This document shows positions 5,519 through 33,524 of a stretch of 64,000 bases of DNA, piece after piece; the first letter of the stretch is position 1, and every line of letters starts with the position of its first letter. The DNA comes from Pseudobacter ginsenosidimutans. GTDB lineage: Bacteria; Bacteroidota; Bacteroidia; Chitinophagales; Chitinophagaceae. Where the stretch lies: the NCBI RefSeq assembly GCF_007970185.1, contig NZ_CP042431.1, positions 1,240,001 through 1,304,000 of the forward strand, given 5' to 3'. The position numbers and the translations under genes are program-made. The notes below the pieces were generated by a model, which had not been told where the DNA came from, searched no databases, and worked only from the letters and a program-made list of their open reading frames with translations.

Positions 5519-5520
5519 TT

Positions 5521-5528
5521 TACCTTTG
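5521..5528 (+). promoter_or_regulatory. TACCTTTG minus-7 promoter element for the class D beta-lactamase homologue
   Basis: Exact match to the Bacteroidota TAnnTTTG minus-7 consensus, 17 bp before the ATG at 5546 and directly after the trehalase stop. No good TTG minus-33 box at the usual spacing was seen. It implies a leader of only about 12 nt. Confidence 0.65.
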
Positions 5529-5545
5529 CGAAAAATTTTGCAGCG

Positions 5546-6370: not shown

Positions 6371-6424
6371 AAACAGGCATAGTTTTAGCTTTATCATTCC
6401 ATCAGTTTATCCTATATTAACCCC

Positions 6425-8046: not shown

Positions 8047-8065
8047 AGACACTCTGAGTGCCGCC

Positions 8066-8165
8066 ACTCGCCTGCCTCTGGCGAGTTAGTTATATTTGAT
8101 CGCCTCTGCCGAACACAGTGCTCGCCGGGAGACGAGCAAATACAAGTCACTCGCGGGGACGCGAG
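8066..8165. repeat. Cluster of three CTCG/CGAG hairpins
   Basis: Three short hairpins in 100 bp between batC and ispG: ACTCGCC/GGCGAGT (8066-8072 with 8080-8086, perfect), GCTCG/CGAGC (8120-8124 with 8133-8137), and CTCGCG-GGGA-CGCGAG (8150-8165, perfect). The third runs into GCGAGCGAC, shared with the element at 3890-3918. None has a following T tract. They look like copies of a small dispersed palindromic repeat. Confidence 0.55.
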
Positions 8166-8190
8166 CGACGGCCACCCTCCGATATTTCAT

Positions 8191-8198
8191 TACCTTTG
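8191..8198 (+). promoter_or_regulatory. TACCTTTG minus-7 promoter element for ispG
   Basis: Exact TAnnTTTG match, 22 bp before the ATG at 8220. It decides the start: the open frame extends upstream to 8118 but that part lies in the hairpin cluster and upstream of this promoter. Confidence 0.65.
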
Positions 8199-8219
8199 TA
8201 CCCACAATTTGAAAACCTC

Positions 8220-10217
8220 ATGCAGCTTTACTGCGACTCATTAACAGAATACAAGAGAATCAAGACCGTAGAAGTGAAGATCGGCGACCTCCTCCTGGGA
8301 AACGGTCACCCGATCCGTGTACAGACCATGACCACCACGGATACGATGGACACCATCGGCACAGTAGAGCAGACCATCCGCTGCATTGAGGCCGGCGCCG
8401 AACTGGTGCGCATCACAGCTCCCAGCAAAAAAGAAGCAGAGAATCTCCTCAACATAAAGAATGAATTACACAAACGCGGCTATCACACGCCGCTTGTAGC
8501 CGATATCCACTTCACGCCCAATGCCGCTGAAATAGCAGCCCGCATCATTGAGAAAGTGCGCGTGAATCCAGGCAATTATGTTGATAAGAAGAAATTTGAA
8601 CAGATCGATTATACCGATGCCGAATACGCAGAAGAGATCGAACGTATCCGCGACCGCTTCACGCCACTGGTGAAGATCTGCAAGGAATACGGAACAGCCA
8701 TGCGCATCGGCACCAACCACGGCTCACTCAGCGACCGTATCATGAGCCGCTACGGCGATACCGCCAATGGTATGGTAGAATCAGCTATGGAGTTCCTGCG
8801 CATCGCACGCGCTGAAGATTATCACAATATCGTGCTCAGCATGAAGAGCAGTAATCCCCTGGTGATGGTGCAGGCTTACCGCCTCCTGGTGCAAACCATG
8901 AACAATGAATTCGGTCTTATCTACCCCTTACACTTAGGGGTAACCGAAGCCGGCGATGGAGAAGATGGCCGCATCAAATCAGCCATCGGTATCGGAAGTT
9001 TATTGGAAGATGGGATCGGAGATACTATCCGCGTATCGCTCACGGAAGATCCGGAATTCGAGATCCCCGTTTGCCAGGACCTGGTAAAAAGATATACAAA
9101 ACCTGCATCCGCTTCATTTGAAGTGCCGCCCGTTGAGAAGCTCAGTTATGATCCTTTCTCCTACGCGCGGAGAGACAGTTTCGCCGTTGATAATATCGGC
9201 GGCAAACAGGTGCCGGTAGTGGTCGCTGATCTCAGCAGGCTGGACAATATCACTCCGCAACACCTGCAGAGCATCGGCTACAACTACGACGCCAATACAG
9301 ACAAATGGAATATCAATGATGCCGCTGCCGACTATGTTTTCACCGGCAACAATGTGCTCGACTTCCATTTGCCCGGCACACTCAAAGTGATCGTTTATCC
9401 GGATGCACTGGCCAATGCCAATGATCCATCCAAATATTTCCCCATTTTCAGCGCCGCTGAATTTGCCGATTCACCCCATCGTAACCGACACCTGAATTTT
9501 GTAATGGTGGATTGCTATGGAAGGCCCGAGCAGGTGCTGGACCAGCAACAGGATGGGACCTGGGCCAACGATGCATCAGTAGTGCTCTGTCTCAGCAGTA
9601 CCCGCAAGAACGCCATGCAGGCCGTACGTCGCATGTTTGTGGAGCTGCACCAGCAGAACATCAAGAATCCGGTTGTATTGATCACTGACAGTAATGGACA
9701 AACGCCGGACGAACATCTCATTCATTTTGCTACAGAAACAGGTGCGCTCCTGCTTGATGGTTTGGGAGATGGTATTTGCCTGGGCTATGGCGCCAATGCA
9801 AAGAAGGAAAGCCTTCAAACCAATGGCCGCACTTATCTGCCGGTAAAGGATCATAACCAATGGACGAACAATATTGCTTTCTCCATATTGCAGGCAACGC
9901 GTACGCGTATCTCCAAAACAGAATACATTTCCTGTCCGAGCTGCGGCCGTACATTATTCGATCTGCAGGAAACAACGGCTAAGATCCGATCTGTTACCAA
10001 CCACCTGAAAGGTGTGAAGATCGCCATCATGGGTTGTATCGTGAATGGTCCCGGCGAAATGGCGGACGCGGATTTCGGTTATGTGGGAAGCGGCCCCGGC
10101 AAGATCACGCTGTATAAAGGAAAAGAAGTGGTAAAAAGAAATGTGGACAGCGCCATTGCCGTGGAAGAGCTGATCAACTTATTGAAAGAAAACGAAGCCT
10201 GGGTAGAACCGGCATAG
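8220..10217 (+). CDS. ispG: 4-hydroxy-3-methylbut-2-enyl diphosphate synthase, long form
   Basis: 665 residues from ATG at 8220. It performs the penultimate MEP-pathway step, converting MEcPP to HMBPP with reductive ring opening by a [4Fe-4S] cluster. The N-terminal TIM barrel begins after YKRIKTVEVKIGD. A large insertion domain of about 250-300 residues sits mid-protein, as in Bacteroidota, chlamydial and plant enzymes, which explains the length against about 370 in E. coli. The C-terminal cluster domain has SCPSCGRT near 570-577 and GCIVNGPGE near 605-613 (third Cys and catalytic Glu). It is probably monocistronic, with its own minus-7 box and a strong terminator. Confidence 0.96.
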   Translation: MQLYCDSLTEYKRIKTVEVKIGDLLLGNGHPIRVQTMTTTDTMDTIGTVEQTIRCIEAGAELVRITAPSKKEAENLLNIKNELHKRGYHTPLVADIHFTPNAAEIAARIIEKVRVNPGNYVDKKKFEQIDYTDAEYAEEIERIRDRFTPLVKICKEYGTAMRIGTNHGSLSDRIMSRYGDTANGMVESAMEFLRIARAEDYHNIVLSMKSSNPLVMVQAYRLLVQTMNNEFGLIYPLHLGVTEAGDGEDGRIKSAIGIGSLLEDGIGDTIRVSLTEDPEFEIPVCQDLVKRYTKPASASFEVPPVEKLSYDPFSYARRDSFAVDNIGGKQVPVVVADLSRLDNITPQHLQSIGYNYDANTDKWNINDAAADYVFTGNNVLDFHLPGTLKVIVYPDALANANDPSKYFPIFSAAEFADSPHRNRHLNFVMVDCYGRPEQVLDQQQDGTWANDASVVLCLSSTRKNAMQAVRRMFVELHQQNIKNPVVLITDSNGQTPDEHLIHFATETGALLLDGLGDGICLGYGANAKKESLQTNGRTYLPVKDHNQWTNNIAFSILQATRTRISKTEYISCPSCGRTLFDLQETTAKIRSVTNHLKGVKIAIMGCIVNGPGEMADADFGYVGSGPGKITLYKGKEVVKRNVDSAIAVEELINLLKENEAWVEPA

Positions 10218-10232
10218 AAAATACTCAAAAAT

Positions 10233-10269
10233 AAAAGCGGCGATCTGCACAAAACAGATCGCCGCTTTT
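10233..10269. terminator. Bidirectional intrinsic terminator between ispG and pheS
   Basis: A perfect 15-bp stem (10233-10247 with 10255-10269, core GCGGCGATCTG) with a 7-nt loop, flanked by A and T runs. It can serve ispG on the plus strand and pheS on the minus strand. Confidence 0.93.
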
Positions 10270-10293
10270 TATTTTGAGGGATGAACTATCCCG

Positions 10294-11322
10294 CTAAGTG
10301 ATCGGCGTAAACTGATTCAGGAACCGCACATCATTCTCACTGAACAACCTGATATCATTGATGCCATATTTCAGCATCGCTGGTCTTTCGATCCCCATAC
10401 CGAATGCGAAACCTGTGTATTTATTCGGATCGATCTTACAATTCTCCAGCACTTTCGGATGCACCATGCCGCATCCCAGGATCTCCAGCCAGCCGGTGCG
10501 CTTGCACACAGCACAACCTTCGCCATGACAGATCAGACATTGAACGTCCATTTCTGCACTGGGCTCGGTGAAGGGAAAGTAGCTGGGACGGAACCGGATC
10601 TTGATATCCTTTCCATACATTTCCTGCACGAAGAAATAAAGTGTTTGCTTCAGGTCAGCGAAAGATACGTTCTCATCGATATACAATCCTTCGATCTGGT
10701 GGAAGAAACAATGGCTGCGTGCACTGATAGTCTCGTTGCGGTAAACGCGGCCGGGACAAACGATGCGCAGCGGCAATACGCCTTTCTCCATGTTGCGGAT
10801 CTGGGTATTGCTCGTATGGGTACGCAGCACCCAGTCAGGGTTCTGCTGGATATAAAATGTATCCTGCATATCGCGTGCAGGGTGGTTTTCAGCGATATTG
10901 AGGGCGGTGAAATTATGCCAGTCGTCTTCAATCTCCGGACCTTCAGCAGTAGAAAAGCCGAGACGGTTGAAGATACTGATCACATGATTCAGGAATAAAT
11001 TGATCGGATGGCGTGTTCCGAGTGTAAGTGAATCACCGGGAAGGGTTACATCGATAGAAGCGGCCTTTTGTGATCCTCCGCCCAGCTGCTCTTTCCAGTT
11101 TTCATATTTTCCTTCAGCCAGTTGTTTGAATTCGTTCAATACCTGTCCGAATTCTTTTTTCTGGTCTGCCGGAACATTCTTCATTTCAGCGAAGAGGTTC
11201 TTGACAATACCTTTGGTACCTAAGAATTTTATACGGTAGGCTTCCAATGAATCGGCTCCATTGGTGGGGGTATTTTCAATCTCCAGCTTGTAAGCTGCGA
11301 TCTGTTGTAACAATTGCTCCAT
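10294..11322 (-). CDS. pheS: Phenylalanine--tRNA ligase alpha subunit
   Basis: 342 residues, the usual length. It is the catalytic class II subunit of the alpha2beta2 synthetase that charges tRNA-Phe in the cytoplasm. An N-terminal coiled-coil tRNA-binding arm (about 1-90) is followed by the catalytic core with motif 2 around FHQIEGLYID and motif 3 GMGIERPAMLKYG near the C-terminus. CxxC-like cysteines lie in CLICHGEGCAVC before motif 3. The beta-subunit gene pheT is not adjacent, which is common. The ATG is only 4 nt downstream of a TATCTTTG minus-7 box, so the mRNA may be leaderless. Divergent from the arginase-fold gene. Confidence 0.97.
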   Translation of the reverse strand: MEQLLQQIAAYKLEIENTPTNGADSLEAYRIKFLGTKGIVKNLFAEMKNVPADQKKEFGQVLNEFKQLAEGKYENWKEQLGGGSQKAASIDVTLPGDSLTLGTRHPINLFLNHVISIFNRLGFSTAEGPEIEDDWHNFTALNIAENHPARDMQDTFYIQQNPDWVLRTHTSNTQIRNMEKGVLPLRIVCPGRVYRNETISARSHCFFHQIEGLYIDENVSFADLKQTLYFFVQEMYGKDIKIRFRPSYFPFTEPSAEMDVQCLICHGEGCAVCKRTGWLEILGCGMVHPKVLENCKIDPNKYTGFAFGMGIERPAMLKYGINDIRLFSENDVRFLNQFTPIT

Positions 11323-19311: not shown

Positions 19312-22224
19312 ATGAAGAAACTCCTACTATTATTATTGCTCGGCTCTACTGCCATTGCGCAGGCGCAGCGCCGTTCGCATCTCCCGGCAGACCAATGGGT
19401 AGACAGTGTTTTCAAATCACTCTCCAAAGAAGAGAAGATCACACAACTGATGAACATCAGAGTGTCTACCATCGGGCCCAATCGCACAGCATTGTTCCTG
19501 GACAAAGAAGTGGAAGAAGCAGTACGCAAGTACAATGTAGGAAGTCTTTGTCTGTTTCAGGGCGGGCCTATCAAACAGGCTCAGACCATCAATTATTACC
19601 AGTCTGTTGCAAAAACTCCGCTCCTCATCACCATCGATGGTGAAAATGGTGTTGGTATGCGCTTCGACAGTGTGATGGGACTTCCCCGTCAGATGATGCT
19701 CGGCGCAGCACATGATCCTGCACTGGCCTACCAGTACGGTCAGGTAGTGGCCGAACAATGCAAGCGCATAGGCATACAGGTGAATTATGCGCCTGTAGTA
19801 GACATCAATAACAATCCCGCCAATCCGGTGATCAACGACAGATCATTGGGAGAAGATAAATACAGGGTGGCCGAGTACGGCGTTCAGTACATGAAAGGTA
19901 TGCAGGACAATGGTGTGATGGCCTGCGCCAAACACTTTCCCGGTCATGGTGATGTAGCAGTTGATTCTCACCACGATCTTCCTGTGATCAACAAAACCAG
20001 GGCAGAGCTGGATTCACTGGAGCTCTATCCATTCCGCGAGCTCATCAAAGCTGGTGTTGGCTCCGTGATGGTAGCCCATTTGCAGGTGAATTCCATCGAC
20101 AATGGCGTCAATAGACCTACTTCCATTTCTTCCAAAGCCGTTACCAACCTGCTCAAAAAAGAGCTGGGCTTCACCGGCCTCACTTTCACCGATGCACTCG
20201 AAATGAAAGGTGTTGCAAAATTCTATCCCGATGGTGAAAACAGCCTCCAGAGCCTGATTGCAGGCAACGACATGCTTTGTCTTCCCGGCAATATCCCCGG
20301 CAGTATCGAAAAAGTGCTGAAAGCCATCCGCAAGAAAAAACTCAATTGGAAAGACATCGACGCACGCGTGAAGAAAGTACTGTATGCCAAATACCAGTAC
20401 GGCCTCGCCAACCTGCAACCCATCGATATCAACAATATCACTGAAGACCTCAATAGCAAAGTGCCCATGATGCGCAGGATAATCGCTGAAAAAGCGATTA
20501 CCCTTCTCCGCAATGATGAATATGGCATATTCCCGCTCACCAAAGGGAAACGCGTTGCCTATGTAGGTTTCGGTCTGGATAAAGACAATGCATTTGCAGC
20601 AGAAGTTCGCAAAAACTATGATGCGCAGGTTTTCTATTTCGATTACAATCTCGACAGCAGCCGAGTGGAGCCGATGCTTCAGTTGCTGAAGAATCGTTTC
20701 GATGTGGTAGTGCTCGGCCTGCACAATTACAACCGTTTCCCCGCCAACAATTTCGGCGTGAGCAATGCAGCCATGAACCTCATGAAGGGTCTGCAGCAAC
20801 AACACAAGACCATTACCATGGCCTTCGGAAACCCTTACCTGATCAAGAATTTCTGTGATGCCAAAGTATTGCTGGCCTGTTACGAAGATGACGATATTAC
20901 ACAATCTGCCGGAGCAGACCTGCTGTATGGCAAGTTCTCCGCAAAAGGACAATTACCCGTCACCATCTGCGATGCCTTCAAATTTGGCGATGGCATCGTA
21001 GCACATAAAATATTGAAAGAGGCCGCGCCTGCTTCTCTCGGTTTCAACCAGGCCCGCATGACTGCTCAGATCGATAGCATCGTTACAGATGCCATCGCAA
21101 AAAATGCGATCCCCGGCGCAGTGGTACTGGTGGCAAAAGATGGAAAAGTGGTTTTCGATCGCGCATACGGTCATCTTACCTACGACAGCACCGAATCGAT
21201 GTATCCCGAAACCATTTTCGATCTGGCCTCAATCACCAAGGTGATGGCCACTACCATTTCCGTAATGAAACTGGTAGACGAAGGCAAACTCGATATCAAC
21301 AAAACCCTGGGCGATTATCTTCCCTGGGTGAAAGGTTCCGACAAAGAGAACCTGAAGCTCCGCGATGTGCTGTTGCACCAGGCCGGACTGAAATCCTTCA
21401 TTCCTTTTTATCGTGGAACCCTCACCGGTACCGATGGCAGACCCAACTGGGCCTATTACTCCATGAAGCCCGATTCTCTGCACCAGGTACGCGTTGCCAA
21501 TGGCCTCTACCTGCGCAATGATTATCCGGACACGATGTACAATATCATCGTAAAAAGTCAACTTGAACCCGGCAATCGCTATATCTACAGCGATAACGAT
21601 TTCATCTTCCTCGGTAAAATAGTGGAAGCCATTTCCGGCATGCCGCTGGATCAATACGTGAAGAAAACCTTCTACGACAAACTGAACCTGGCCACTACCG
21701 GCTTCAAGCCCCGCGACCGTTTCCCGCTTAGCTATATTGCTCCCACCGAGAACGAAGCGCTGTTCCGTCGCCAGTTGATCCAGGGTGATGTACACGATCC
21801 GGGGGCTGCCATGTTCGGCGGCGTAGCTGGTCATGCCGGTCTTTTCAGCAATGCCTACGATCTCGCGGTGCTGGCACAAATGCTGCTCAATGGCGGAGTG
21901 ATCGATGGCAAGAACTTCTTCAGCAAAGCCACGCTGGATGAGTTCACAGCTTACCAGAGCGATATCAGTCGTCGTGGTCTCGGATTCGACAAACCCGAGA
22001 AAGACAATGCAACGCGCAAGGAAGCCTATCCAACACTGAGCGCCTCACCGCTCACTTTCGGTCATACCGGTTTCACCGGCACCTGCATCTGGATGGATCC
22101 CAAGTACAACCTCACGTACATCTTCCTTTCCAATCGTGTGAACAGCACCGAGCCCAACAAATTCGGCAACCTGAGCGTACGCCCCAAAGTACACGAGGCC
22201 ATTTACCAGGCTTTGCTCCATTGA
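19312..22224 (+). CDS. GH3 glycosidase (NagZ-type) fused to a serine beta-lactamase-fold hydrolase
   Basis: 970 residues with a signal peptide ending near 19. Residues about 30-380 form a GH3 beta-N-acetylhexosaminidase domain: the KHFPGHGDVAVDSHHD loop near 206-221 holds the His-Asp general acid pair of NagZ enzymes, and FTDALEM near 294-300 carries the nucleophile Asp. A middle GH3 C-terminal-like domain (about 390-560) precedes a class C beta-lactamase-fold domain (about 590-965) with SITK near 639, YSDN near 758 and HTG near 917 in the KTG position. The two parts could process muropeptides: sugar cleavage plus peptide or ester cleavage. This fusion is common in Bacteroidota; periplasmic location is inferred. 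Confidence 0.92.
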   Translation: MKKLLLLLLLGSTAIAQAQRRSHLPADQWVDSVFKSLSKEEKITQLMNIRVSTIGPNRTALFLDKEVEEAVRKYNVGSLCLFQGGPIKQAQTINYYQSVAKTPLLITIDGENGVGMRFDSVMGLPRQMMLGAAHDPALAYQYGQVVAEQCKRIGIQVNYAPVVDINNNPANPVINDRSLGEDKYRVAEYGVQYMKGMQDNGVMACAKHFPGHGDVAVDSHHDLPVINKTRAELDSLELYPFRELIKAGVGSVMVAHLQVNSIDNGVNRPTSISSKAVTNLLKKELGFTGLTFTDALEMKGVAKFYPDGENSLQSLIAGNDMLCLPGNIPGSIEKVLKAIRKKKLNWKDIDARVKKVLYAKYQYGLANLQPIDINNITEDLNSKVPMMRRIIAEKAITLLRNDEYGIFPLTKGKRVAYVGFGLDKDNAFAAEVRKNYDAQVFYFDYNLDSSRVEPMLQLLKNRFDVVVLGLHNYNRFPANNFGVSNAAMNLMKGLQQQHKTITMAFGNPYLIKNFCDAKVLLACYEDDDITQSAGADLLYGKFSAKGQLPVTICDAFKFGDGIVAHKILKEAAPASLGFNQARMTAQIDSIVTDAIAKNAIPGAVVLVAKDGKVVFDRAYGHLTYDSTESMYPETIFDLASITKVMATTISVMKLVDEGKLDINKTLGDYLPWVKGSDKENLKLRDVLLHQAGLKSFIPFYRGTLTGTDGRPNWAYYSMKPDSLHQVRVANGLYLRNDYPDTMYNIIVKSQLEPGNRYIYSDNDFIFLGKIVEAISGMPLDQYVKKTFYDKLNLATTGFKPRDRFPLSYIAPTENEALFRRQLIQGDVHDPGAAMFGGVAGHAGLFSNAYDLAVLAQMLLNGGVIDGKNFFSKATLDEFTAYQSDISRRGLGFDKPEKDNATRKEAYPTLSASPLTFGHTGFTGTCIWMDPKYNLTYIFLSNRVNSTEPNKFGNLSVRPKVHEAIYQALLH

Positions 22225-24538: not shown

Positions 24539-24555
24539 GGTTCGCTCTTTTCTTT
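24528..24555 (+). terminator. Terminator containing the korA stop codon
   Basis: Perfect stem GAGCGAAC/GTTCGCTC (24528-24535 with 24540-24547) with the loop TAAG, in which the TAA is the korA stop codon, followed by TTTTCTTT. It rules out read-through to any distal korB. Confidence 0.8.
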
Positions 24556-25873
24556 ATGCTGCATTTGGATTCTGCTCGGAGAAGAGGAACACAATGGCAA
24601 AAGCCAGGATGGCGATCACCAGTCCGAACATAAATATATTGTAAGCGATGCGCAGGTACTTGTATTTGCGGGCCAGTACAACGCCGAGACTATAAATGTC
24701 CTTGATCATACTGCTATCGAGATAATCACGATCGGCCATCATTTGTTTCATCGCCCAATCATAATCCTTGAGTTCCATATTGAAGAAATTGCCGAAGAAC
24801 AGCAGGTTCACTTTTTTATTCTCGATATCTTCCTGCGTGAATGTGCCGCGGTTCACATTGGGCCTTGTGGCCAGGATAGCGAATACCACTGCGCTGAGAC
24901 ATACTGCCAGCAGGATAATTGTGGGCACGATGAATTCTGGATAGAATTGCAGTTTACCCAACAGCACAGACACCATGATAGAGATCACGATGGTATTCAC
25001 CGAGATCATGATATTAGCTTTGCTGTCGGCCATCTGGCTCAGGTTCACGTGATTCTCGCTCATGATGCGGAACATCGTGGCAATGCTTCTCTCCGTTCTT
25101 GCTGCTTTATCTTTTTCAAATTTTTCCTTGTCCCTTTCAAGCTTCTCTCTTTCTCTCACCAGTTTATCGTTTCCATTATTTTTTTCAACCGGCAATACAA
25201 CGTTATTCTCCGGCGGGAGCCTGGTGTTCACCACCATCTTTTCCATCGAATCATTTCCCTCTTTTCCGTTTTTCTCGGCCTTCCGGATCAGCTCCAGCAA
25301 ATGCTGTTGTTTCACTGGTTCAAGCACTGTCTTGCCATATTCAGTGAAGTAACGATGTTGTTGTAAAAAGAAGATATTCTTCTGGCGCCATTCTTTCTTG
25401 CCTAGTTTGTTATCGAATAGCAGATTGAGTTCCTGGCGAAGCAGTTTGTTCTTTTCCGGGAAGATGGGCATGCCCAGGTGCGAGAGGTCTGCATCGCAAA
25501 GGATCTGTTCCAGTAAGTTGGTAGGGCTTTGTGGCCATTTGGTGGCCATGATGGCATTGCTCACTTTGTCGATGGTCTGCTGGTCTATACCCCTGCTTTG
25601 CAGGAAATCAGAAGCAATATCACGGCTGACCTCTTCATGCCTTTTGGGTTGACCCGCTGAATAGCCGGTATCATGGAACCAGGCGGCCAGCAGCAGTGCA
25701 GGTTTTTCCTCCTCCGGAAGGCCCAGGTGAGTGGCCATCAGGTCGGAGGCTTCCACCACTTCCCTTGTATGGTCTATATTATGATAAACGAATGCAGGAT
25801 TCACTTTGGTAGTGAAGATGCCCGTTACGTATTGCCTGGCTTCCTGTAATAATTGCTGCGCGGCTGATGTCAT
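24554..25873 (-). CDS. HD-domain phosphohydrolase fused to a Pycsar-effector-like transmembrane domain
   Basis: 439 residues. The N-terminal HD domain (about 1-200) has the metal ligands H31/H35 in YHNIDH, the HD pair at 67-68 in WFHDTGY and D129 in CDADLSHLG. A charged coiled-coil linker (about 237-263, KLEREKEKFEKDK-like) leads to a C-terminal domain (about 265-439): MADSKANIMISVN entering a first membrane helix (287-306), a second (314-335) and a last one (411-431). This C-terminal part resembles DUF5706/PycTM, the membrane effector of Pycsar anti-phage systems that responds to cCMP or cUMP. No cyclase lies next to it. The HD part could degrade a nucleotide signal; function is inferred. 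Confidence 0.8.
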   Translation of the reverse strand: MTSAAQQLLQEARQYVTGIFTTKVNPAFVYHNIDHTREVVEASDLMATHLGLPEEEKPALLLAAWFHDTGYSAGQPKRHEEVSRDIASDFLQSRGIDQQTIDKVSNAIMATKWPQSPTNLLEQILCDADLSHLGMPIFPEKNKLLRQELNLLFDNKLGKKEWRQKNIFFLQQHRYFTEYGKTVLEPVKQQHLLELIRKAEKNGKEGNDSMEKMVVNTRLPPENNVVLPVEKNNGNDKLVREREKLERDKEKFEKDKAARTERSIATMFRIMSENHVNLSQMADSKANIMISVNTIVISIMVSVLLGKLQFYPEFIVPTIILLAVCLSAVVFAILATRPNVNRGTFTQEDIENKKVNLLFFGNFFNMELKDYDWAMKQMMADRDYLDSSMIKDIYSLGVVLARKYKYLRIAYNIFMFGLVIAILAFAIVFLFSEQNPNAA

Positions 25874-25975: not shown

Positions 25976-26809
25976 ATGAACAGAATCTTTACCTGTATCC
26001 TTTTCATATTGCTGATTGCCGGCTTTTCCGGATGTACCGGACAGGGTAAATCCTTTGTGCCCTCCATTCCCGGCTATGACGCCTCAAAGAAAACCACCCT
26101 GGTGCTGGACAAAGACCTGCTGGAGATCTCAGGCATGTTCTGGCTTCCCAATAATACCATTGCAGCCATCAACGATGAAGAAGGTAAAGTGTTCCTGGTT
26201 GACCCTGAAGACGGTGACCTCCAGGTGAGGAAGTTCGGTAAGAAAAGGGATTATGAAGACATCGTGAAGTTAGACACATTCTATTTTGTGCTCGAAAGCA
26301 ATGGCAATATCCACCGGGTACCCGTAAACGTAAAACACGTGGAAGATGAATTCGAGTTCCATCGCAAGAAGAAGATCGAATTCGAAAGTCTTTATATCGA
26401 TCCCAATAATCAGCTCATCCTGCTATCCAAAGAACAACGCGAATCCAAGAAAGGAGTGCTGGCCTATAGCTTCAACCCTGTTACCCTTCAATTTTCCGAT
26501 ACGCCCGTGTACACCATCAGATGGAAGGATATCCGCAATGAGCTCAAGAACAACAATGCAGAATTCAAACCATCGGCAGCCGCTATCCATCCAATAAAGC
26601 GTACCCTCTTCATTGTGGCAAGTGTTGGCAAAGCCATGCTGGAAACGAGTCTGGATGGGGACGTGATTGCTGCTTATCAACTTAACCCCGATCAGTTCCC
26701 TCAACCCGAAGGCCTCACATTCGCTCCGAATGGGGATATGTATATTTCGAATGAAGGAGTGGATGGAAAAGGAACGATATTGAAATTCCCGTATAGCCAC
26801 CCGAAGTAA
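25976..26809 (+). CDS. SdiA-regulated-type beta-propeller lipoprotein
   Basis: 277 residues from ATG at 25976, which gives a clean lipoprotein signal (FSGC, Cys about 20). The rest is a repeat-rich beta fold: an early LEISGMFWLPNNTIAAINDE segment and a late PQPEGLTFAPNGDMYISNEG segment match the SdiA-regulated/phytase-like propeller family, where acidic Glu/Asp residues on the propeller face bind Ca or phosphate. It is probably on the periplasmic or outer face. Biochemical role unknown. The large phosphoesterase-barrel gene follows 15 bp downstream, so the two are likely one operon and may act on the same secreted or surface substrate. Confidence 0.78.
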   Translation: MNRIFTCILFILLIAGFSGCTGQGKSFVPSIPGYDASKKTTLVLDKDLLEISGMFWLPNNTIAAINDEEGKVFLVDPEDGDLQVRKFGKKRDYEDIVKLDTFYFVLESNGNIHRVPVNVKHVEDEFEFHRKKKIEFESLYIDPNNQLILLSKEQRESKKGVLAYSFNPVTLQFSDTPVYTIRWKDIRNELKNNNAEFKPSAAAIHPIKRTLFIVASVGKAMLETSLDGDVIAAYQLNPDQFPQPEGLTFAPNGDMYISNEGVDGKGTILKFPYSHPK

Positions 26810-26824
26810 CGTCAACATAATGCT

Positions 26825-29800
26825 ATGAATAGGATCTATACCTGGCTGGTTTTATTGCTGCTCATCTCCACTGCGTCCGTATCGGCGCAGGATACACTTG
26901 CGCATCGCATCATCCTGGTGGGTGATGCAGGCAAACAGATCAATGGGCGTCACCCCGAACTGGAACTGATGAAGTCCCTCTTCAAGCCCGACGCCCGTAC
27001 TACTTTGCTCTTCCTCGGCGACAATGTTTACCAGCACGGTCTCCCGGATTCCACGGCTTCCAATTACCCGGAGAAGAAAAAGATACTAGACGATCAGATC
27101 AACTCGGTAAAAGGCACTGAAGCACAGGCCTGGTTCATGCCCGGTAACCACGACTGGAACAAGGGCAAACGAAATGGATTCGCCCAGATCCTGCACCAGG
27201 CGCGTTATGTAGAGTCCTTGCAGATCCCCAATATTCATTTTGCACCGCCCGAAGGCTGCCCTGGCCCCGTGGAAGTAAAACTGACGGATGAGATCACCAT
27301 GCTGATCATCGACAGCCAGTGGTGGTTCCAGCAGGAGGGACGCCCCGGCGAAACCTCCGACTGTGAATGCAAGACCAATGATGAGCTCACACTCGCCATC
27401 AAAGACGCACTCTATCGCAACCGCAATAAACTCGTGATCTTCGCTGCCCACCACCCTTTCAGAACACATGGCGAGCACGGCGGCTACTTCACCATCAAAC
27501 AACATATCTTCCCGCTCACCGAGGTGAACGAGAACCTGTATATCCCTTTGCCTGTTATCGGTTCCATATACCCGTTATCCCGATCATGGTTCGGCAATAT
27601 CCAGGATATGCCGCATCCCGTGTACAAGAAATATATTCAGTCGCTGGATACATTGCTCAACAAACACCCTTATTCCATCAGGGTTTCAGGGCATGAGCAC
27701 ACGCTGCAGTACATGACGGAAAATGGCCAGCAACATATTGTCAGCGGCGCCGGCTCCAAGCAAAGCCAGGTGAAATACGGAAAAGATACACGCTACGCCA
27801 ATGAAGGTACCGGCTTCGGCGTACTGGATATTTCCACCAATGGAAGCATCACGCTCACTTTCTATTCTTCCCTGTCGAAAGAAGCCAATCATGTGTTGTA
27901 TCAAACTTCATTGCCTGCTTTCAAATCTCCTGGTCTTGAAGAAAAAGCGATTGCCATTCCCAATCTGCCGGATTCATTCACAACTATAACAGCGCCTTAT
28001 TATAAAGCCAATAGCTTCAAAAGATGGTTACTGGGTGATAATTACCGGAAAGAATGGACTACGCCAATTACGGTTCCCGTGTTCGATATGGGCAAGATCC
28101 GTGGTGGCCTCAAACCCACCAAACGCGGTGGTGGTATGCAGTCCCGCTCTCTCAGGCTGGAAGATGCTGAAGGACGTGAGTTCGTGTTGCGCAGCGTGGA
28201 GAAGTATCCCGACAAAACCCTGCCGGAAGAATTCAGACAAACATTCGTGAAAGATGCAGTGGTAGACGGCATTTCTGCCTCCTATCCATTTGCGGCATTG
28301 TCTATTCCGCCACTGGCCACAGCAGCAAAAGTGCCACATGCCAATCCCAAACTGGTATGGTTACCCGATGATCCACGCCTGCTTCAATTCAGGCAGGACT
28401 TTGGCAATGGCCTTTATCTTTTTGAAGAAAGAGAACCTCTCGATCTTCCAAAAACCTGGAGCACAGAAAAAGTGATCGAGAAGTTGCAGGAAGATAATGA
28501 TAATAAGACCGATCAGAAAGCCGTCTTACGGGCACGCCTACTCGATCTGTTCATCATGGACTTTGACCGTCACGAAGACCAGTGGCGCTGGGGCGCTCCG
28601 GAAACAGAGAAAGGAAAAGGCAAGACCTATTTCCCGATCCCCCGTGACCGCGACCAGGCCTTCTTCACCAATGATGGCATTATTCCACGCCTTATCAGTC
28701 AGCCCTGGCTCATTCCGAAATTCCAGGGCTTCCGCGCAAAAGCAAGGAATATCAATACCTTCAACTTCAACGGAAGGTATTTCGATCGTTCCTTCCTCAA
28801 CGATCTCAGTGAATCCGACTGGGCCGAAGGTGTAGACTCCTTCCTGCCGCTCATGACGGATTCCGCCATCCGCCTGGCTTTGCAGCAGCAACCTCATGAA
28901 ATACAGAATGAGGCCGTTCCGCATATTATCAAAACCCTGCAGGAAAGGAGAGGTTTCCTGAAAGAAGAGGCATTGAAATATTATCGTTTCCTCTCCAAAG
29001 AAGTGGACGTAGCCGGTTCAGACAAACGTGAACTGTTCGAGATCACGCGCAATGAAGACGGCTCCGTGAAAGTGGTGGTGCGCAAGATCAATAAGGAAGG
29101 AGAAGAAACGAAAAAACTGTATAGTCGCACTTTCCGTTATGGCGTAACCAAAGAGATCCGTCTGTACGGAATGGGAGGTGAAGATAAATTCGTACTCAAT
29201 GGGGATGGCCGCAAAAGCATTCTTGTACGTATCATCGGCGGAGCAGGAAAAGATACCATCGATAATTCGGCTACACATAGCAGTGGCGGTAAGACCCGTG
29301 TGTATGATCTCAGGTCCGAAGGCAATGTGATCACCGGCGAAGGCAAACAACTGAGGAAATTCTCTTCCGATCCCACCGTCAATGAGTATGACCGGAAAGC
29401 CTTCAAATACAATATCTGGGCGCCATTGGTCACAGCTGCCTTCAACCCGGATGATGGCGTTTTCCTTGGCGCAGGATTCAAGTACACCGGCAATAAATTT
29501 CGCCGCAGTCCTTCTGTGATCCATAAATTAGTGGTAAGTCATGCCCTCGCCACAGAAGCCTTCACCATCCGTTACAGCAGTGATTTCCGGAAAGTGATCG
29601 GCAAGACTGACCTCTTCGTATATGCGAATCTGAATGCCCCGGATTATGTGACCAACTTCTTTGGCCTGGGCAACGAAACCAATTACAACAAAGATGCACC
29701 CGGCAAGATCGATTACTATCGTGCCCGTTACAACAAGGGCGATATGGCGGTATTGCTGAAGCGCGAGCTCAGCAGCTGGCTCACCGTTGCCATCGGTCCA

Positions 29801-30466
29801 TCTTTCCAGTATTTCCGTCCGGATGAAGACGAGAACCAGGGCAGGTTCCTTTCCAATTTCGCAGAGAACGGACTTGATCCGAAAACCCTGTTCACCGATA
29901 AATCCTACCTGGGTGGCCAGTTCAACATGAACATCGATACCCGCGACAATGAAGTGATGCCTTCACGTGGTACTTTCTGGCAATCATCTCTCAAAGTATT
30001 GCGCGGTCTCAACGATAATTCTGACTATCTCACACAGCTGAACTCGGATATGGCTTTGTATTTTCCATTGAGCAGTACAGCGGGCACAGTGATTGCAACC
30101 CGTTTCGGTGGAGGGGTCAATTTCGGTAAATATGAATTTTTCCAGGCTCAATATCTGGGCAACACAGAGAACCTGCGCGGCTTCAGAAAATTCCGTTTTG
30201 CCGGAAAATCGATGCTGTACAACAATACTGAATTGCGCATCAAGGTCACAGATTTCAGGACCTATCTGCTGCCCGGCGCTATCGGCATTGTTGCCTTCAA
30301 CGATATCGGCCGCGTTTGGGTTGACAATGATAAGTCCAATGTCTGGCATCATGGTTATGGCGGAGGCATCTGGCTTGGTATTGTAAAAAGAATTGTGTTG
30401 ACGGCCAGCCTCACTACGTCCAAAGAAAGTACCCTGCCCCTTTTAACGTTTGGTTATCAGTTCTGA
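26825..30466 (+). CDS. Secreted metallophosphoesterase with kinase-like middle domain and BamA-like barrel
   Basis: 1213 residues. A signal peptide ends near 21. A calcineurin-type phosphoesterase (about 25-300) has GDAG at 33, GDNVYQ near 63, GNHDW near 101 and GHEH near 289, giving the dinuclear metal site. The middle (about 440-720) carries FVLRSVEKYP near 452, MDFDRHEDQW near 578 and PIPRDRDQAF near 604, a set I read as an atypical-kinase-like (CotH/HipA-like) core. The C-terminal about 350 residues form a BamA/TamA-type outer-membrane barrel ending in aromatic strand FGYQF. The enzyme parts should therefore sit in the periplasm or at the surface, tethered to the barrel. Substrate unknown; first and last domains are confident, the middle is inference. 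Confidence 0.88.
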   Translation: MNRIYTWLVLLLLISTASVSAQDTLAHRIILVGDAGKQINGRHPELELMKSLFKPDARTTLLFLGDNVYQHGLPDSTASNYPEKKKILDDQINSVKGTEAQAWFMPGNHDWNKGKRNGFAQILHQARYVESLQIPNIHFAPPEGCPGPVEVKLTDEITMLIIDSQWWFQQEGRPGETSDCECKTNDELTLAIKDALYRNRNKLVIFAAHHPFRTHGEHGGYFTIKQHIFPLTEVNENLYIPLPVIGSIYPLSRSWFGNIQDMPHPVYKKYIQSLDTLLNKHPYSIRVSGHEHTLQYMTENGQQHIVSGAGSKQSQVKYGKDTRYANEGTGFGVLDISTNGSITLTFYSSLSKEANHVLYQTSLPAFKSPGLEEKAIAIPNLPDSFTTITAPYYKANSFKRWLLGDNYRKEWTTPITVPVFDMGKIRGGLKPTKRGGGMQSRSLRLEDAEGREFVLRSVEKYPDKTLPEEFRQTFVKDAVVDGISASYPFAALSIPPLATAAKVPHANPKLVWLPDDPRLLQFRQDFGNGLYLFEEREPLDLPKTWSTEKVIEKLQEDNDNKTDQKAVLRARLLDLFIMDFDRHEDQWRWGAPETEKGKGKTYFPIPRDRDQAFFTNDGIIPRLISQPWLIPKFQGFRAKARNINTFNFNGRYFDRSFLNDLSESDWAEGVDSFLPLMTDSAIRLALQQQPHEIQNEAVPHIIKTLQERRGFLKEEALKYYRFLSKEVDVAGSDKRELFEITRNEDGSVKVVVRKINKEGEETKKLYSRTFRYGVTKEIRLYGMGGEDKFVLNGDGRKSILVRIIGGAGKDTIDNSATHSSGGKTRVYDLRSEGNVITGEGKQLRKFSSDPTVNEYDRKAFKYNIWAPLVTAAFNPDDGVFLGAGFKYTGNKFRRSPSVIHKLVVSHALATEAFTIRYSSDFRKVIGKTDLFVYANLNAPDYVTNFFGLGNETNYNKDAPGKIDYYRARYNKGDMAVLLKRELSSWLTVAIGPSFQYFRPDEDENQGRFLSNFAENGLDPKTLFTDKSYLGGQFNMNIDTRDNEVMPSRGTFWQSSLKVLRGLNDNSDYLTQLNSDMALYFPLSSTAGTVIATRFGGGVNFGKYEFFQAQYLGNTENLRGFRKFRFAGKSMLYNNTELRIKVTDFRTYLLPGAIGIVAFNDIGRVWVDNDKSNVWHHGYGGGIWLGIVKRIVLTASLTTSKESTLPLLTFGYQF

Positions 30467-31118: not shown

Positions 31119-33524
31119 TTATTTGTTTACGCCTGCCAGTTTTCTTCCTTCCTTTTCCTGATCACTGTCTTCTGATTCTACTTCCAGGTTCACACCAACT
31201 CTCAGCGCTTTCAATCCACTCACTCCCTGCAATTCTTCCAGTTCCAGTCTTTCCACCTCACCGCGGAGCAGTCCCTGGTTTTGAAGGTATTCGATATACT
31301 CCAGGTATTCGAATGCTTCCTGTTGCTGTGAATAAACGATGGCGATATATCCAGGCTTGGTCAGCCTTTCATTGGAATCTTTCAGGTGCACTTTATCGAT
31401 CCTTTTCTTGATGATCTCGTAACGGATATTGTAAGCGCCGTCCACATCAAATTTGCGTTCTGCAGTACGGAAGCTGATAGAGATCGGATGGCTATGCGCC
31501 AGGATCAGCTGACTGGTCTGCAATGGCATGGCCAGTTGTTTCTCCAGCGAGTGCGTGAGCCTGGCTGCTTTGGCCAGTGTGCTCAGTTGCCAGATCTTGA
31601 GGTTGCGCAGGTAGAAGAAATCGAATTTCTTTTCCGGCGTGATAGATTGACCGATATAGATATTGAAGTCTACACCATCTGTTACGAACCTTTCAAAATA
31701 ATGCGGGAAGATCTGTTGCGCCATTTTCTGTTCGTGATCGATGAAACGGGCAACTTCATTGTTTATTTGTGTAATGCTGTCTTCATATTTCTTTCTGTGA
31801 TGGTACACCATTTCAACAGGTGAGTCCACCGCTTCAAAGTATTTGTTGATCGGTTTATTCAATGATGGCATGATGGTTTGCAGGTGTTTGAACAACTGCA
31901 CCACTTCCACTTTCAGGAATTGCAGGATACTCAGCTCATCATCCGCGAACAGGATGTTAGACACGGAGTGAATGTATTTCCTGATCTTGAAATTGGTTTC
32001 ATCCAGCAGGGGGAAAGGATGATCTTTCTTTGCTGCCAGTACGATATCATTCGCCTGGTTCAATTGTTCCAGGAGATCGAGCTGTATAGAGTGATTCCTT
32101 TCAACGGAGGAATTGCGGATATCGATGGCGCCATAAAGCGGATAAACATTTTCAAACACGATCGGTTCGATCTTCACTTCGCCATCTCCCTTATCCATTC
32201 CCGTTAGATAGTTGAGAGCAGCTTCAGTAAAGCGCCATTCAACAGCATCCTGCACGGCAGTGAACTGGTCCTTGATCACGCGGTCTACCTGGTGGTCCAG
32301 ATTCTCCTGTGCCTTCTCCATCGCGATCTTGAAGAGCGGGATGGCAGGTTCTATTCTGAGTACATGTTCAGGCTGGAATTTTCCTTTTTCTTCCGTAACG
32401 ATGATCAGCACGCCCATTACTTCCCTGCTATCGCTGAAGAGCGGGCAAATGATGGCGCTTCTCCATCCATACTCTGCCATGAAAGTAAGGAAGGGATAAC
32501 GCATCACAGCCTCTTCAGTGATCTCGTTCACCAATAGTGGCTTCGGATTCTTCTCAAATGCGTTGGTCACGGCCTGGTAGAGATATTGCAATTTCTCAGG
32601 TGAAGGTTTGCGCTTCACCATCTGGTCCGTCATAGTGGTATAGAACTCGGAGAGCACCATATGGTTATTCACCTGGAAGAAAGGCTTCACGGCAGTTTTC
32701 ACGCCGGGAACGCCCAGCAGGTTCTGCACCTGGTTCTGCAATTCGCCGAACAGATGTGTATCGGCAAAATTGTTCAGGTGAAGGAGTTTGTCGCGGATGA
32801 TGTTCAGTACTTCTCTTTCTGTCACTTCCCAGATGCGGATGATCACCATGCCTTCGAACTCGAATTTATCGAGCGGCAGAGCGGTGCGCAGTCCGGGCAC
32901 GTGATCGATACCGCCACCTGCTTTCACGCAGCCGAGCTGTACTTCATCGGGCAGCGGCGGTAATTCACCTCTAACACGAACATCGAGGAACCTGGTATCG
33001 ATCTCCAGTTCCATGTAGCGGTCCAATCCGGTTTCCGGGCATTTGTAGGGCTCTACCATGCGCACGGTATCGGTCTTATCGATATCGTAAAGTCTGCTGA
33101 GGATGAATTGATACATGCAATCTTCCTTGCCTGACTGGGGCGATCCGCCGCCGCAGGCATCTGCTTCAGGAAGTGTGATATCATGACTATGCGGGTCCAC
33201 GATAAAGAGCTCGCGGAACTTTGTTGATTCATAGAACATCTTCATCTGGAAGGGGAAGCCCGCTCCGAAAAGATCTTCTTTATCATTGAGGGTCACAGGA
33301 AAAACTGTGGCCATCATTTGTTCTATGAGTGTTTTGTGTTTGTCCAGAACAGACAGATCATCGATCCTGCCCAATAGTTCAGGGTATTGCCGAACTTTGT
33401 TCAGCAGATCCTGGTACAACTGGCGGGTTCCTTCCCTGCCCTCCCGGATCATCTTCTCCCACTCCCGGATAAGGGGGGCGAAACTCAGATATGAGTGCGG
33501 CGCCTGGGTAAAATTTGATTCCAT
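31119..33524 (-). CDS. Large GAF-domain protein without a recognisable output domain
   Basis: 801 residues, cytoplasmic by lack of signal or membrane helices. A GAF-like sensory segment is centred near 330-415 (ending FLTFMAEYGWRSAIICPLFSDSREVMGVLIIV), matching the GAF pattern of two strands around a small-molecule pocket. The rest is long alpha-helical sequence, with a coiled-coil-like segment near 530-640 and a distinctive acidic end. No histidine kinase, GGDEF, phosphatase or DNA-binding domain was found. Homologues of this length are common in Bacteroidota as unnamed GAF proteins. The preceding intergenic region has helically spaced CCGG repeats and a palindrome, suggesting tight control. 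Confidence 0.72.
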   Translation of the reverse strand: MESNFTQAPHSYLSFAPLIREWEKMIREGREGTRQLYQDLLNKVRQYPELLGRIDDLSVLDKHKTLIEQMMATVFPVTLNDKEDLFGAGFPFQMKMFYESTKFRELFIVDPHSHDITLPEADACGGGSPQSGKEDCMYQFILSRLYDIDKTDTVRMVEPYKCPETGLDRYMELEIDTRFLDVRVRGELPPLPDEVQLGCVKAGGGIDHVPGLRTALPLDKFEFEGMVIIRIWEVTEREVLNIIRDKLLHLNNFADTHLFGELQNQVQNLLGVPGVKTAVKPFFQVNNHMVLSEFYTTMTDQMVKRKPSPEKLQYLYQAVTNAFEKNPKPLLVNEITEEAVMRYPFLTFMAEYGWRSAIICPLFSDSREVMGVLIIVTEEKGKFQPEHVLRIEPAIPLFKIAMEKAQENLDHQVDRVIKDQFTAVQDAVEWRFTEAALNYLTGMDKGDGEVKIEPIVFENVYPLYGAIDIRNSSVERNHSIQLDLLEQLNQANDIVLAAKKDHPFPLLDETNFKIRKYIHSVSNILFADDELSILQFLKVEVVQLFKHLQTIMPSLNKPINKYFEAVDSPVEMVYHHRKKYEDSITQINNEVARFIDHEQKMAQQIFPHYFERFVTDGVDFNIYIGQSITPEKKFDFFYLRNLKIWQLSTLAKAARLTHSLEKQLAMPLQTSQLILAHSHPISISFRTAERKFDVDGAYNIRYEIIKKRIDKVHLKDSNERLTKPGYIAIVYSQQQEAFEYLEYIEYLQNQGLLRGEVERLELEELQGVSGLKALRVGVNLEVESEDSDQEKEGRKLAGVNK

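Follow-up and report, generated by a model that had tools for sequence, protein, structure and literature searches.

Domain organization of the composite protein

The window, meaning the whole stretch of 64,000 nucleotides that was analysed, contains a composite gene that follows a lipoprotein gene on the same strand. The two genes and the modules of the composite protein are located as follows:

25976..26809, + strand: SdiA-regulated-type lipoprotein, upstream neighbour, 277 aa from ATG (Pfam SdiA-regulated, E 6.4e-5)
26825..30466, + strand: composite gene, 1213 aa (ORF list)
26825..26890, + strand: putative signal peptide, residues 1-22 (read by eye)
26903..27964, + strand: purple-acid-phosphatase-like phosphoesterase domain, residues 27-380 (Pfam, motifs, profile match)
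27980..29002, + strand: kinase-like (PKL) domain, residues 386-726 (AlphaFold2 model, structure searches)
29003..29395, + strand: beta-only linker, about residues 727-857 (DSSP of the model)
29411..30463, + strand: 16-stranded Omp85/TamA-like barrel, about residues 863-1213 (Pfam, model, fold search)

The composite protein is the sole significant match to its own query in the source genome, where the next-best match obtained with the kinase-like domain profile reaches only E 0.378.

Calcineurin motifs had been noted earlier in the first 300 residues, and Pfam indeed places Metallophos at residues 28-225 (E 4.6e-5). Purple acid phosphatases carry the motif set GDxG, GDxxY, GNHD/E, H-H and GHxH. 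The N-terminal domain, a putative enzyme, contains the full set as GDxG (33-36), GDNxY (65-69), GNHD (107-110), HH (209-210) and GHxH (289-292), each position being kept in 57 to 61 of the 61 phosphatase-containing rows. It also matches a purple acid phosphatase/TRAP type 5 profile (E 6.7e-18), so the phosphoesterase is of the purple acid phosphatase (PAP) type of the 'calcineurin' fold. Profile match and metal motifs are common to both; unlike these enzymes, the domain described here shares its chain with a kinase-like domain and a barrel.

Predicted fold of the kinase-like domain

AlphaFold2, with a 50-row family alignment as input, predicted the kinase-like domain with a pLDDT of 89.8 and a pTM of 0.89, and the resulting model displays the two lobes of a kinase fold. 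Matches to solved kinases cover about residues 416-724. The best PDB matches of this model in Foldseek were PI4KII-alpha (E 1.6e-5) and CtkA (E 4.3e-5), with an rmsd of 7 to 8 and TM-scores that are low (0.34 to 0.36 for the leading PI4KII and CtkA rows when normalised to the query). VIA aligned 265 residues with PI4KII (4yc4; Z 14.8, rmsd 5.2), 247 with CotH (5jda; Z 14.2, rmsd 4.2), 236 with CtkA (3akk; Z 13.9, rmsd 4.6) and 214 with HipA (3tpb; Z 11.2, rmsd 4.1), and its best 50 rows were all kinase-fold entries. On this predicted model, the middle domain appears to adopt a PKL fold nearest to PI4K type II, CotH and CtkA/HipA. The earlier note had guessed a kinase fold of the CotH/HipA group for residues 430-740; these residues did not turn out to be unrelated to protein kinases, and the predicted fold of about 416-724 is closest to CotH, HipA, CtkA and, in addition, PI4K type II.

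The shared fold is accompanied by clear differences. PI4K type II, a eukaryotic membrane lipid kinase unlike the window protein, is the top fold match, yet the identity over the match is 10-12%. CotH, from the Bacillus spore coat, has neither barrel nor phosphatase. HipA is a cytoplasmic toxin-antitoxin kinase.

The leading position of lipid kinases among the fold matches permits a reading to which we assign a rather low probability. Here the domain would be a PI4K-like lipid kinase acting on an outer-membrane lipid or glycolipid, the phosphatase would reset its product to control inner-leaflet charge, and the barrel would be an anchor. It is consistent with the link that the authors of PlpD draw between their protein and outer-membrane lipid homeostasis (PMC11116518), whereas the protein kinases CotH and CtkA match our model equally well (Z within 1).

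Candidate catalytic residues

Four elements of the kinase-like domain were located on the model and the alignment:

28127..28141, + strand: glycine-rich GGGMQ, residues 435-439, between the first two N-lobe strands (model and alignment)
28190..28204, + strand: R456 in strand beta-3, with K460 just after it (61/61 rows; DSSP strand 452-457)
28565..28582, + strand: putative catalytic loop D581-R-H-x-x-Q586 (61/61 rows)
28646..28654, + strand: putative metal site D608-R-D610, DFG-equivalent (61/61 rows)

All three kinase-like strings named previously are present in the chain, namely FVLRSVEKYP (453-462), MDFDRHEDQW (578-587) and PIPRDRDQAF (604-613). According to the DSSP of the model, the proposed residues fall at the positions that a kinase needs. 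The D581 loop sits between helix 564-577 and strand 587-590 and aligns both with DRHNGN of CtkA and with the Asp of the NWD of CotH. The D608-R-D610 site comes after strand 601-606 and is aligned with the P-x-D-x-D of CotH, so that the D-x-D motif stands in the same register; CotH altered at Asp228 or Asp251 is inactive (PMC7821199). The position of the candidate catalytic Asp is corrected from D578 to D581. In place of the proposed Lys, invariant R456 holds strand beta-3 (452-457), and K460 follows it.

Among the 61 phosphatase-containing rows, which are related and not independent, 19 of the 445 columns are invariant, and these include R456, K460, D579, D581, R582, H583, Q586, D608 and D610. 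The D-x4-N/Q pattern with a later metal Asp (D581...Q586, D608) is thus present in every row of this class. The glycine-rich turn is slightly more variable: of the 61 three-module rows, 53 have GGG and 60 have GGx. When the window is translated in all six frames, the pattern DRH..[QN]W is encountered once. The conservation anticipated in the earlier note accordingly applies to the phosphatase-containing class, whereas part of the kinase-barrel class is degenerate: the D581/(Q,N)586/D608 set is missing in 12 of 44 kinase-barrel rows (intact in 31 of 43 once L030 and L166 are counted as one gene) and in 2 of 13 stand-alone rows. Together with the predicted model, these data suggest that an acid-phosphatase domain is joined in one chain to a kinase-fold domain that has kept its likely catalytic residues.

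Neither the fold nor the residues establish that the domain is an active kinase; PKL folds also AMPylate, polyglutamylate or act as scaffolds (PMC10870513). With this precedent, the PKL domain could perform another chemistry such as AMPylation, or be a nucleotide sensor or scaffold that leaves the phosphatase as the sole enzyme. The degenerate branch of the family and the lack of known ATP in the compartment agree with such a role; invariant candidate residues in all 61 phosphatase-containing rows, unlike what a scaffold would display, make us regard it as unlikely.

Sequence relationship to known kinase families

The middle domain has no convincing match in Pfam, NCBIfam (searched with the whole protein) or PHROGs, and PADLOC on the whole protein returned nothing usable for it. 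Pfam searches with the 50 alignment members gave 28 scattered families (best E 0.011), and CotH is not among the 25 of them that were listed. With E values of up to 10 allowed, neither CotH (PF08757) nor HipA_C (PF07804) matches the window protein, and CotH has no match in the source genome. HipA_C has two matches in that genome, both outside the window. A search of 148 genomes from the phylum with PI3_PI4_kinase (PF00454) found none.

Searches against the PDB were similarly faint. With the single sequence, phmmer found one ribosomal protein (E 0.18). The best profile match is CtkA, whose DRHNGNW is aligned on DRHEDQW at a non-significant E of 0.068, followed by an unrelated ribonucleotide reductase (E 0.14). 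In hhalign, the 50-row alignment reached E 0.25 with CotH and E 0.062 with HipA, compared with E 0.21 to 0.58 for reversed controls; the probabilities were 0.2% (CotH) and 0.9% (HipA), and that of CotH versus HipA was 70.5%. A more diverse 96-row alignment raised them to 5.4% for CotH and 2.5% for HipA. It scored 27.9 with the CotH profile (E 0.0072; reversed controls 18.2 and 18.6) and set the P-x-D-x-D of CotH on PRDRD, a result that is a hint only, since D581 and D608 served as criteria for choosing its rows, which favours the motif register. In global mode, the same alignment produced no sensible CotH alignment. Judged from sequence, kinship of the domain to known PKL families is marginal.

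Among the literature titles and abstract beginnings screened, none concerned the kinase module of this protein. The family may already be among the 72 PKL families of KINtaro (PMC10870513). A paper on the Riemerella OMP76 was a chance word match, and the words kinase, phosphoesterase, phosphatase, propeller and SdiA are absent from the F. johnsoniae BAM paper (PMC12611786).

The C-terminal barrel and the linker

A BamA-like barrel had been proposed for the C-terminal end. Pfam places Omp85 at residues 953-1174 (E 4.2e-14), and the model contains 16 long strands in a BamA/TamA fold typical of the Omp85 superfamily (TamA Z 28.2, BamA Z 27.2), which bears the proposal out. The preceding linker carries GG-x-G-x-D (805-810) and, on DSSP, consists almost only of strands without POTRA helices. 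The superfamily usually has at least one POTRA domain, for which Pfam gave no match in the window protein; POTRA-less Omp85 subfamilies are nevertheless accepted (PMC4104836). The fold lists of the barrel model name no POTRA-only chain, which we do not count as evidence.

The arrangement corresponds to the Omp85 'Metallo' subfamily of Heinz and Lithgow (2014), defined by PF00149 N-terminal to an Omp85 barrel without POTRA (PMC4104836), and the window protein has this architecture. The phosphatase-Omp85 pairing was thus already published in 2014. That paper labels PF00149 a metalloprotease; the word 'kinase' is absent from its main text, and its section 10 on 'Metallo' does not describe the kinase-fold module of roughly 340 aa between phosphoesterase and barrel. 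To this unexplained subfamily, our analysis adds an apparently unlabelled PKL family whose catalytic set is intact in the main class.

Assembly is the usual role of Omp85 proteins (PMC4104836), and the TamA and BamA matches would suit an outer-membrane-protein assembly or translocation factor in which the N-terminal modules replace POTRA as quality-control arms. Such a role would leave the conserved catalytic residues unexplained. The missing POTRA pattern in both model and Pfam and the 13 barrel-less ORFs with the kinase-like domain also argue against it, and we consider it very improbable.

Distribution and forms of the family

Of 296 genomes sampled from the phylum, 110 contain the kinase-like domain, which is thus common there. 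Among plasmids, 5 of 72,556 records contain it (Hymenobacter, Persicobacter, Parabacteroides). It also occurs without the phosphatase and as stand-alone genes. The 125 ORFs collected split 64/46/13/2, the 46 being kinase-barrel and the 13 stand-alone forms; as all 13 stand-alone forms were fetched, this split is not a frequency. The 120 rows analysed exclude two fragments (L077, L160), three ORFs whose first listed domain stretch is below 250 residues (L043, L068, L177) and the window's own copy, which was replaced by the query. L030 and L166 represent the same gene, so that the kinase-barrel genes number 45 instead of 46. L064 and L067 have an identical 200-aa stretch in common, and the other pairs in the recount are artefacts that arise because the stretches of L068 and L177 are short. 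Twelve ORFs touch a locus end (L033, L036, L050, L059, L016, L017, L030, L069, L070, L071, L077, L160), and L011 begins near one.

No phosphatase was seen near most kinase-barrel and stand-alone loci, for many of which the DNA is short. A separate phosphatase gene lies beside the kinase-barrel ORF in 3 of 46 cases (L064, L066, L067), and four others share their locus with an adjacent full three-module gene (L040, L041, L057, L065). An obligatory kinase-phosphatase pair was rejected, as for most of the 46 kinase-barrel ORFs no phosphatase was found in the surrounding DNA, which is short at many loci. Of the 13 stand-alone forms, 6 carry a lipobox-like signal and another 5 a hydrophobic anchor at the N-terminus, 11 in all, as read by eye. 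Ten neighbours of stand-alone kinase genes have no common function (SET, PNPOx, sigma factor, M20 peptidase, PcrB, GNAT, PLP enzyme, DUF5686, topoisomerase IB and one unmatched).

The neighbouring lipoprotein

The SdiA-regulated-type lipoprotein, which contains a lipobox-like FSGC read by eye, was correctly described as lying 15 bp upstream: 15 bases separate the end of its gene at 26809 from the ATG of the composite gene. Of 39 three-module loci that could be tested, 32 have a lipoprotein of this type beside the gene, but 31 of these 32 belong to the set of near relatives of the window; it also adjoins 12 of 43 kinase-barrel rows (11 of 42 with L030/L166 counted once). Beside stand-alone kinase genes it was found in 0 of 13 cases by a single-sequence search at E 1e-3, which could miss distant relatives. 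As suggested earlier, the SdiA-like lipoprotein may partner the barrel form; the kinase domain does not need it.

The earlier note had further proposed that the surface-anchored pair could reversibly phosphorylate an exported substrate. In the version considered here, the pair would be displayed on the cell surface and act on an exported protein, and the lipoprotein would be its partner or substrate. The kinase fold, the conserved residues and the adjoining lipoprotein at most testable three-module loci are compatible with this scheme. In PlpD, a patatin-Omp85 protein in which, as here, an enzyme domain is joined to the barrel, the enzyme domain was measured in the periplasm (PMC11116518), and nothing in our data supports exposure. 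In view of this placement and of the stand-alone genes beside which the single-sequence search found no lipoprotein, we judge the surface scheme improbable. PlpD itself is a phospholipase with POTRA and without kinase or phosphatase.

Proposed mechanism

The reading that we favour, and consider reasonably probable, is an outer-membrane enzyme whose single chain combines two opposing reactions on phosphate. The domains, the predicted fold, the conservation, the co-occurrence and a version split into three genes are what the analysis documents. The activity that we infer, with its direction, substrate, compartment and nucleotide source, would run as follows. The signal peptide would direct export, and the C-terminal Omp85 barrel would insert into the outer membrane. 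The beta-only linker would take the usual place of POTRA and hold the kinase-fold phosphotransferase, which would carry the phosphatase domain on its N-terminal side, all of these parts most likely facing the periplasm. Nucleotide would probably be bound via the glycine-rich turn, R456/K460 and D608/D610, with D581 as the catalytic base that helps to pass phosphate to an envelope substrate, which may be an outer-membrane lipid or glycolipid or else a lipoprotein or outer-membrane protein. The phosphatase would take phosphate off the same or a related substrate. Outside the cytoplasm, phosphate may in this way be both added to and removed from an envelope component. We know of no periplasmic ATP source, and an ATP-lacking environment is mentioned in PMC11116518.

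A broader and more tentative proposal is that Bacteroidota possess an outer-membrane reversible-phosphorylation machine, in which an extracytoplasmic atypical kinase and an opposing acid phosphatase are combined in one Omp85 protein or, in one genus, in three adjacent genes, and would control an envelope lipid or protein through phosphate in a compartment thought to be ATP-free. Fam20C-type kinases, together with acid phosphatases, may work likewise in the animal secretory pathway. Should the domain prove to be an active kinase, it would open a direct way to test whether phosphorylation takes place beyond the cytoplasm of bacteria, where the nucleotide comes from and whether phosphate switches outer-membrane lipids or proteins.

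Three-gene version

In one locus (L149), the kinase-like (7051-8688), phosphatase (8702-9913) and barrel (9910-11097) modules are encoded by consecutive genes on the same strand, with 42%, 24% and 29% identity, respectively, to the window modules. A second locus (L148) has the same order, and the split version is found in two genomes only, of one genus. When 80 genomes of that class were searched, the match from this genus was the only one with an ORF of stand-alone length that is neither partial nor placed at a contig end. The natural stand-alone and three-gene versions provide constructs that should ease testing.

Modules at the two ends of the composite protein

The open reading frame at 26825-30466 (forward strand, 1213 residues) is present as the earlier note described it, and its product starts with what looks by eye like a signal peptide. 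No second significant match to this protein occurs in its own 7.8-Mb genome. Pfam matches are confined to both ends, and NCBIfam returned Omp85 below threshold. The middle, residues ~386-830, has no PHROGs match and no convincing Pfam match, either for the window protein alone or across 50 homologues. The modules outside the middle domain are as follows.

Residues 28-225, forward strand: Metallophos domain (Pfam E 4.6e-5)
Residues ~727-857: linker of beta strands, modelled together with the barrel
Residues 953-1174, forward strand: Omp85 barrel (Pfam E 4.2e-14; Omp85_2 also, sub-threshold)

The phosphatase motifs GDxG (33-36), GDNxY (65-69), GNHD (107-110), HH (209-210) and GHxH (289-292) are kept in 57-61 of the 61 phosphatase-kinase-barrel (three-module) rows per position, and a 33-row profile of the domain matches purple acid phosphatase/tartrate-resistant acid phosphatase type 5 (E 6.7e-18). 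On these sequence features the domain belongs to the purple-acid-phosphatase type and appears active.

The C-terminal part (residues 722-1213, with 46 homologues) was modelled with a pLDDT of 89.4. The model contains 16 long barrel strands, matching TamA (Z 28.2) and BamA (Z 27.2). The stretch ahead of them consists almost exclusively of strands, and no POTRA pattern was seen in this model. Within the linker, the segment GGED...GGAGKD (window 29183-29254, residues 787-810) resembles RTX calcium repeats; its D787 and G806 are invariant in the 61 three-module rows, and one member of the 50-row middle-domain alignment gives a weak HemolysinCabind match (E 0.12).

The middle domain has a predicted kinase-like fold

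Residues 386-830, aligned with 49 homologues from named records, gave a model with mean pLDDT 89.8 and pTM 0.89. Foldseek against the PDB placed PI4KII-alpha (E 1.6e-5) and CtkA (4.3e-5) on top, followed by YihE, the TYK2 pseudokinase and RIO kinases and, lower, Golgi casein kinase (4kqa, E 0.015). E 0.001 was reached by 11 of 519 hits, and the query-normalised TM-scores of the top PI4KII and CtkA rows are low (0.34-0.36). VIA-align, in which models lacking a clear match usually have a best Z of 7-8, gave the following alignments.

VIA-align matches of the middle-domain model
PI4KII, 4yc4: Z 14.8, rmsd 5.2, 265 aligned
CotH, 5jda: Z 14.2, rmsd 4.2, 247 aligned
CtkA, 3akk: Z 13.9, rmsd 4.6, 236 aligned
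HipA, 3tpb: Z 11.2, rmsd 4.1, 214 aligned

Kinase-fold entries fill the best 50 rows throughout, and the best rows cover model residues ~31-339 (window residues 416-724). The kinase-like core suggested in the earlier note is thus borne out by the structure prediction and searches proposed there, and the modelled domain almost certainly has a kinase fold.

Kinship in sequence is weaker. The best PDB profile match is CtkA (E 0.068), whose DRHNGNW aligns on window DRHEDQW, and the runner-up is an unrelated ribonucleotide reductase (E 0.14). A 96-row motif-intact profile scored 27.9 against a 29-row CotH profile (E 0.0072, probability 5.4%; reversed controls 18.2 and 18.6) and 23.8 against a 29-row HipA profile (E 0.018, 2.5%; controls 13.7 and 14.7). 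With a narrower alignment these scores barely exceed the controls; for comparison, CotH and HipA profiles match each other at 70.5% (E 3.9e-5). Because this kinship is weak, we describe the domain as one predicted to work like a CotH/PI4K-type kinase, rather than as a CotH.

Putative catalytic residues

DSSP of the model (model residue + 385 = window residue) locates the motifs as follows.

Residues 435-439: glycine-rich GGGMQ, between the first two strands
Residue 456: R456, third strand
Residues 581-586: D581-R-H-x-x-Q586, after a long helix and before a short strand, as in a catalytic loop
Residues 608-610: D608-R-D610, after the next strand, at the position of the DFG Asp

The profile alignments place D581 on the Asp of CotH NWD and D608/D610 on CotH P-x-D-x-D. 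We infer that the aligned CotH residues are Asp228 and Asp251; according to passages of PMC7821199, CotH altered at either is inactive.

An initial set of 82 rows keeps R456 and R582 throughout and K460, D579, D581, H583, Q586, D608 and D610 in 81; within the glycine-rich turn the counts are G436 81, G435 80, Q439 77 and G437 73. After more divergent relatives were added (120 rows), R456, K460, D581, H583, Q586, D608 and D610 are present in all 61 three-module rows, in agreement with the conservation anticipated earlier; 19 of 445 columns are invariant in these rows. The set D581, Q/N586 and D608 is complete in 61/61 three-module rows, 2/2 phosphatase-kinase rows cut by a contig end, 32/44 kinase-barrel rows (one gene counted twice) and 11/13 stand-alone rows, all counts being of related rows and hence not of independent events. 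The 14 rows with an incomplete set are probable pseudokinases by sequence. In the three-module class the domain is quite likely to be catalytically competent, and kinase chemistry is somewhat favoured over another protein-kinase-like (PKL) chemistry.

The 12 kinase-barrel rows with an incomplete set are L156-L159, L060 (9459-12056), L150-L155 and L169; L156-L159, from one bacterial family, all carry V/L456, R608 and Y610. Stand-alone genes lie side by side in L140 (three, 6129-11148) and L141 (two, 7436-10775), and in each of these genomes S581 and R583 replace D and H in one copy.

Module arrangements and distribution

The domain was found (E <= 0.001) in 110 of 296 genomes sampled from the phylum, by profile search in 21 of 80 genomes of the class of G055 (the genome holding locus L149), and in 5 of 72,556 plasmid records. 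The 125 open reading frames comprise 64 phosphatase-kinase-barrel, 46 kinase-barrel (45 genes; those near contig ends, L011, L077 and L160, may lack an N-terminal part), 13 kinase alone and 2 contig-cut phosphatase-kinase forms. Starred branches of a 106-row tree require at least 12 changes of the three-module label, of which up to ~4 may reflect truncation of rows at contig ends (L069, L071, L070, L011), and we read this as several putative module gains or losses around a steady kinase-like core.

Four loci (L040, L041, L057, L065) hold a kinase-barrel gene adjoining a full three-module gene, which would fit duplication of the module set followed by loss of the phosphatase from one copy. In L058 (4798-8463) the phosphatase part is broken into frames 4798-5403 and 5407-8463, either by a stop or by an assembly error in this MAG.

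Locus L149 carries the modules as three consecutive same-strand genes.

7051-8688: kinase-like lipoprotein
8702-9913: phosphatase, 13 bases after the kinase-like gene
9910-11097, from the listed TTG: barrel, overlapping the phosphatase gene by 4 bases

Their products share 42%, 24% and 29% identity, respectively, with the window modules (BLASTP), and this gene order is shared by L148 of genome G251, from the same genus. A separate phosphatase gene adjoins, in divergent orientation, the kinase-barrel gene of L064, L066 and L067. Fusion in many genomes and adjacency in a few are good evidence, at the level of gene arrangement, that the three parts would serve one process. That the kinase and phosphatase act as a reversible pair on one substrate, as the earlier note proposed, is a tentative suggestion.

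Cellular location and the neighbouring lipoprotein

By eye, 6 of the 13 stand-alone forms begin with a lipobox-like motif (such as LAGC, FSSC, GPGC), and a hydrophobic anchor stands at the N-terminus of 5 others (426-433 aa); L142 starts with a plain signal-like stretch, and one is ambiguous. With such N-termini the kinase-like domain is, by prediction, apparently exported in each of the three arrangements. The chain had been called surface-anchored, and against this stands PlpD, an enzyme-Omp85 protein whose enzyme domain was measured in the periplasm, as stated in parts of PMC11116518. By this analogy both enzyme domains of the window protein are probably periplasmic, and surface exposure is unlikely. 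A periplasmic placement raises a problem of ATP supply, also brought up in the discussion of PMC11116518; other phosphate donors or leaked nucleotide may offer ways round it.

The SdiA-regulated-type lipoprotein, encoded 15 bases upstream and earlier put forward as a possible partner, adjoins 32 of 39 three-module loci but 0 of 13 stand-alone loci; it also adjoins 2/2 contig-cut phosphatase-kinase loci and 12/43 kinase-barrel rows (one gene counted twice), among 97 loci with 900 or more bases available upstream. Since near relatives supply 31 of the 32 adjacent three-module cases (31/36 within that set), this conservation is shown mainly among relatives of the window. In five three-module cases the lipoprotein was classed as lying elsewhere than next to the composite gene; among them are L074 (overlapping the gene start), L058 (preceding the interrupted gene) and L177 (on the gene's other side). 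It is plausible that the lipoprotein is an accessory of the barrel form.

Relation to described families and other genes in the window

Heinz and Lithgow (2014) defined a 'Metallo' Omp85 subfamily with PF00149, termed metalloprotease (sections of PMC4104836); the word 'kinase' does not occur in the main text of that paper. A literature search, thin on subscription journals, returned no publication on the phosphatase, kinase-like and barrel combination. KINtaro lists 72 PKL families, according to parts of PMC10870513, and the middle-domain family may already be among them.

Three further genes in the window were recorded.

31119-33524, reverse strand: 801-aa protein, no Pfam match at E 0.001
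19312-22224, forward strand: 970-aa fusion of glycoside hydrolase family 3 and a beta-lactamase-fold domain
24554-25873, reverse strand: HD-domain protein (Pfam E 3.9e-8) carrying PycTM, a Pycsar effector domain, at its C-terminus (Pfam E 2.8e-37; PADLOC E 1.5e-16)
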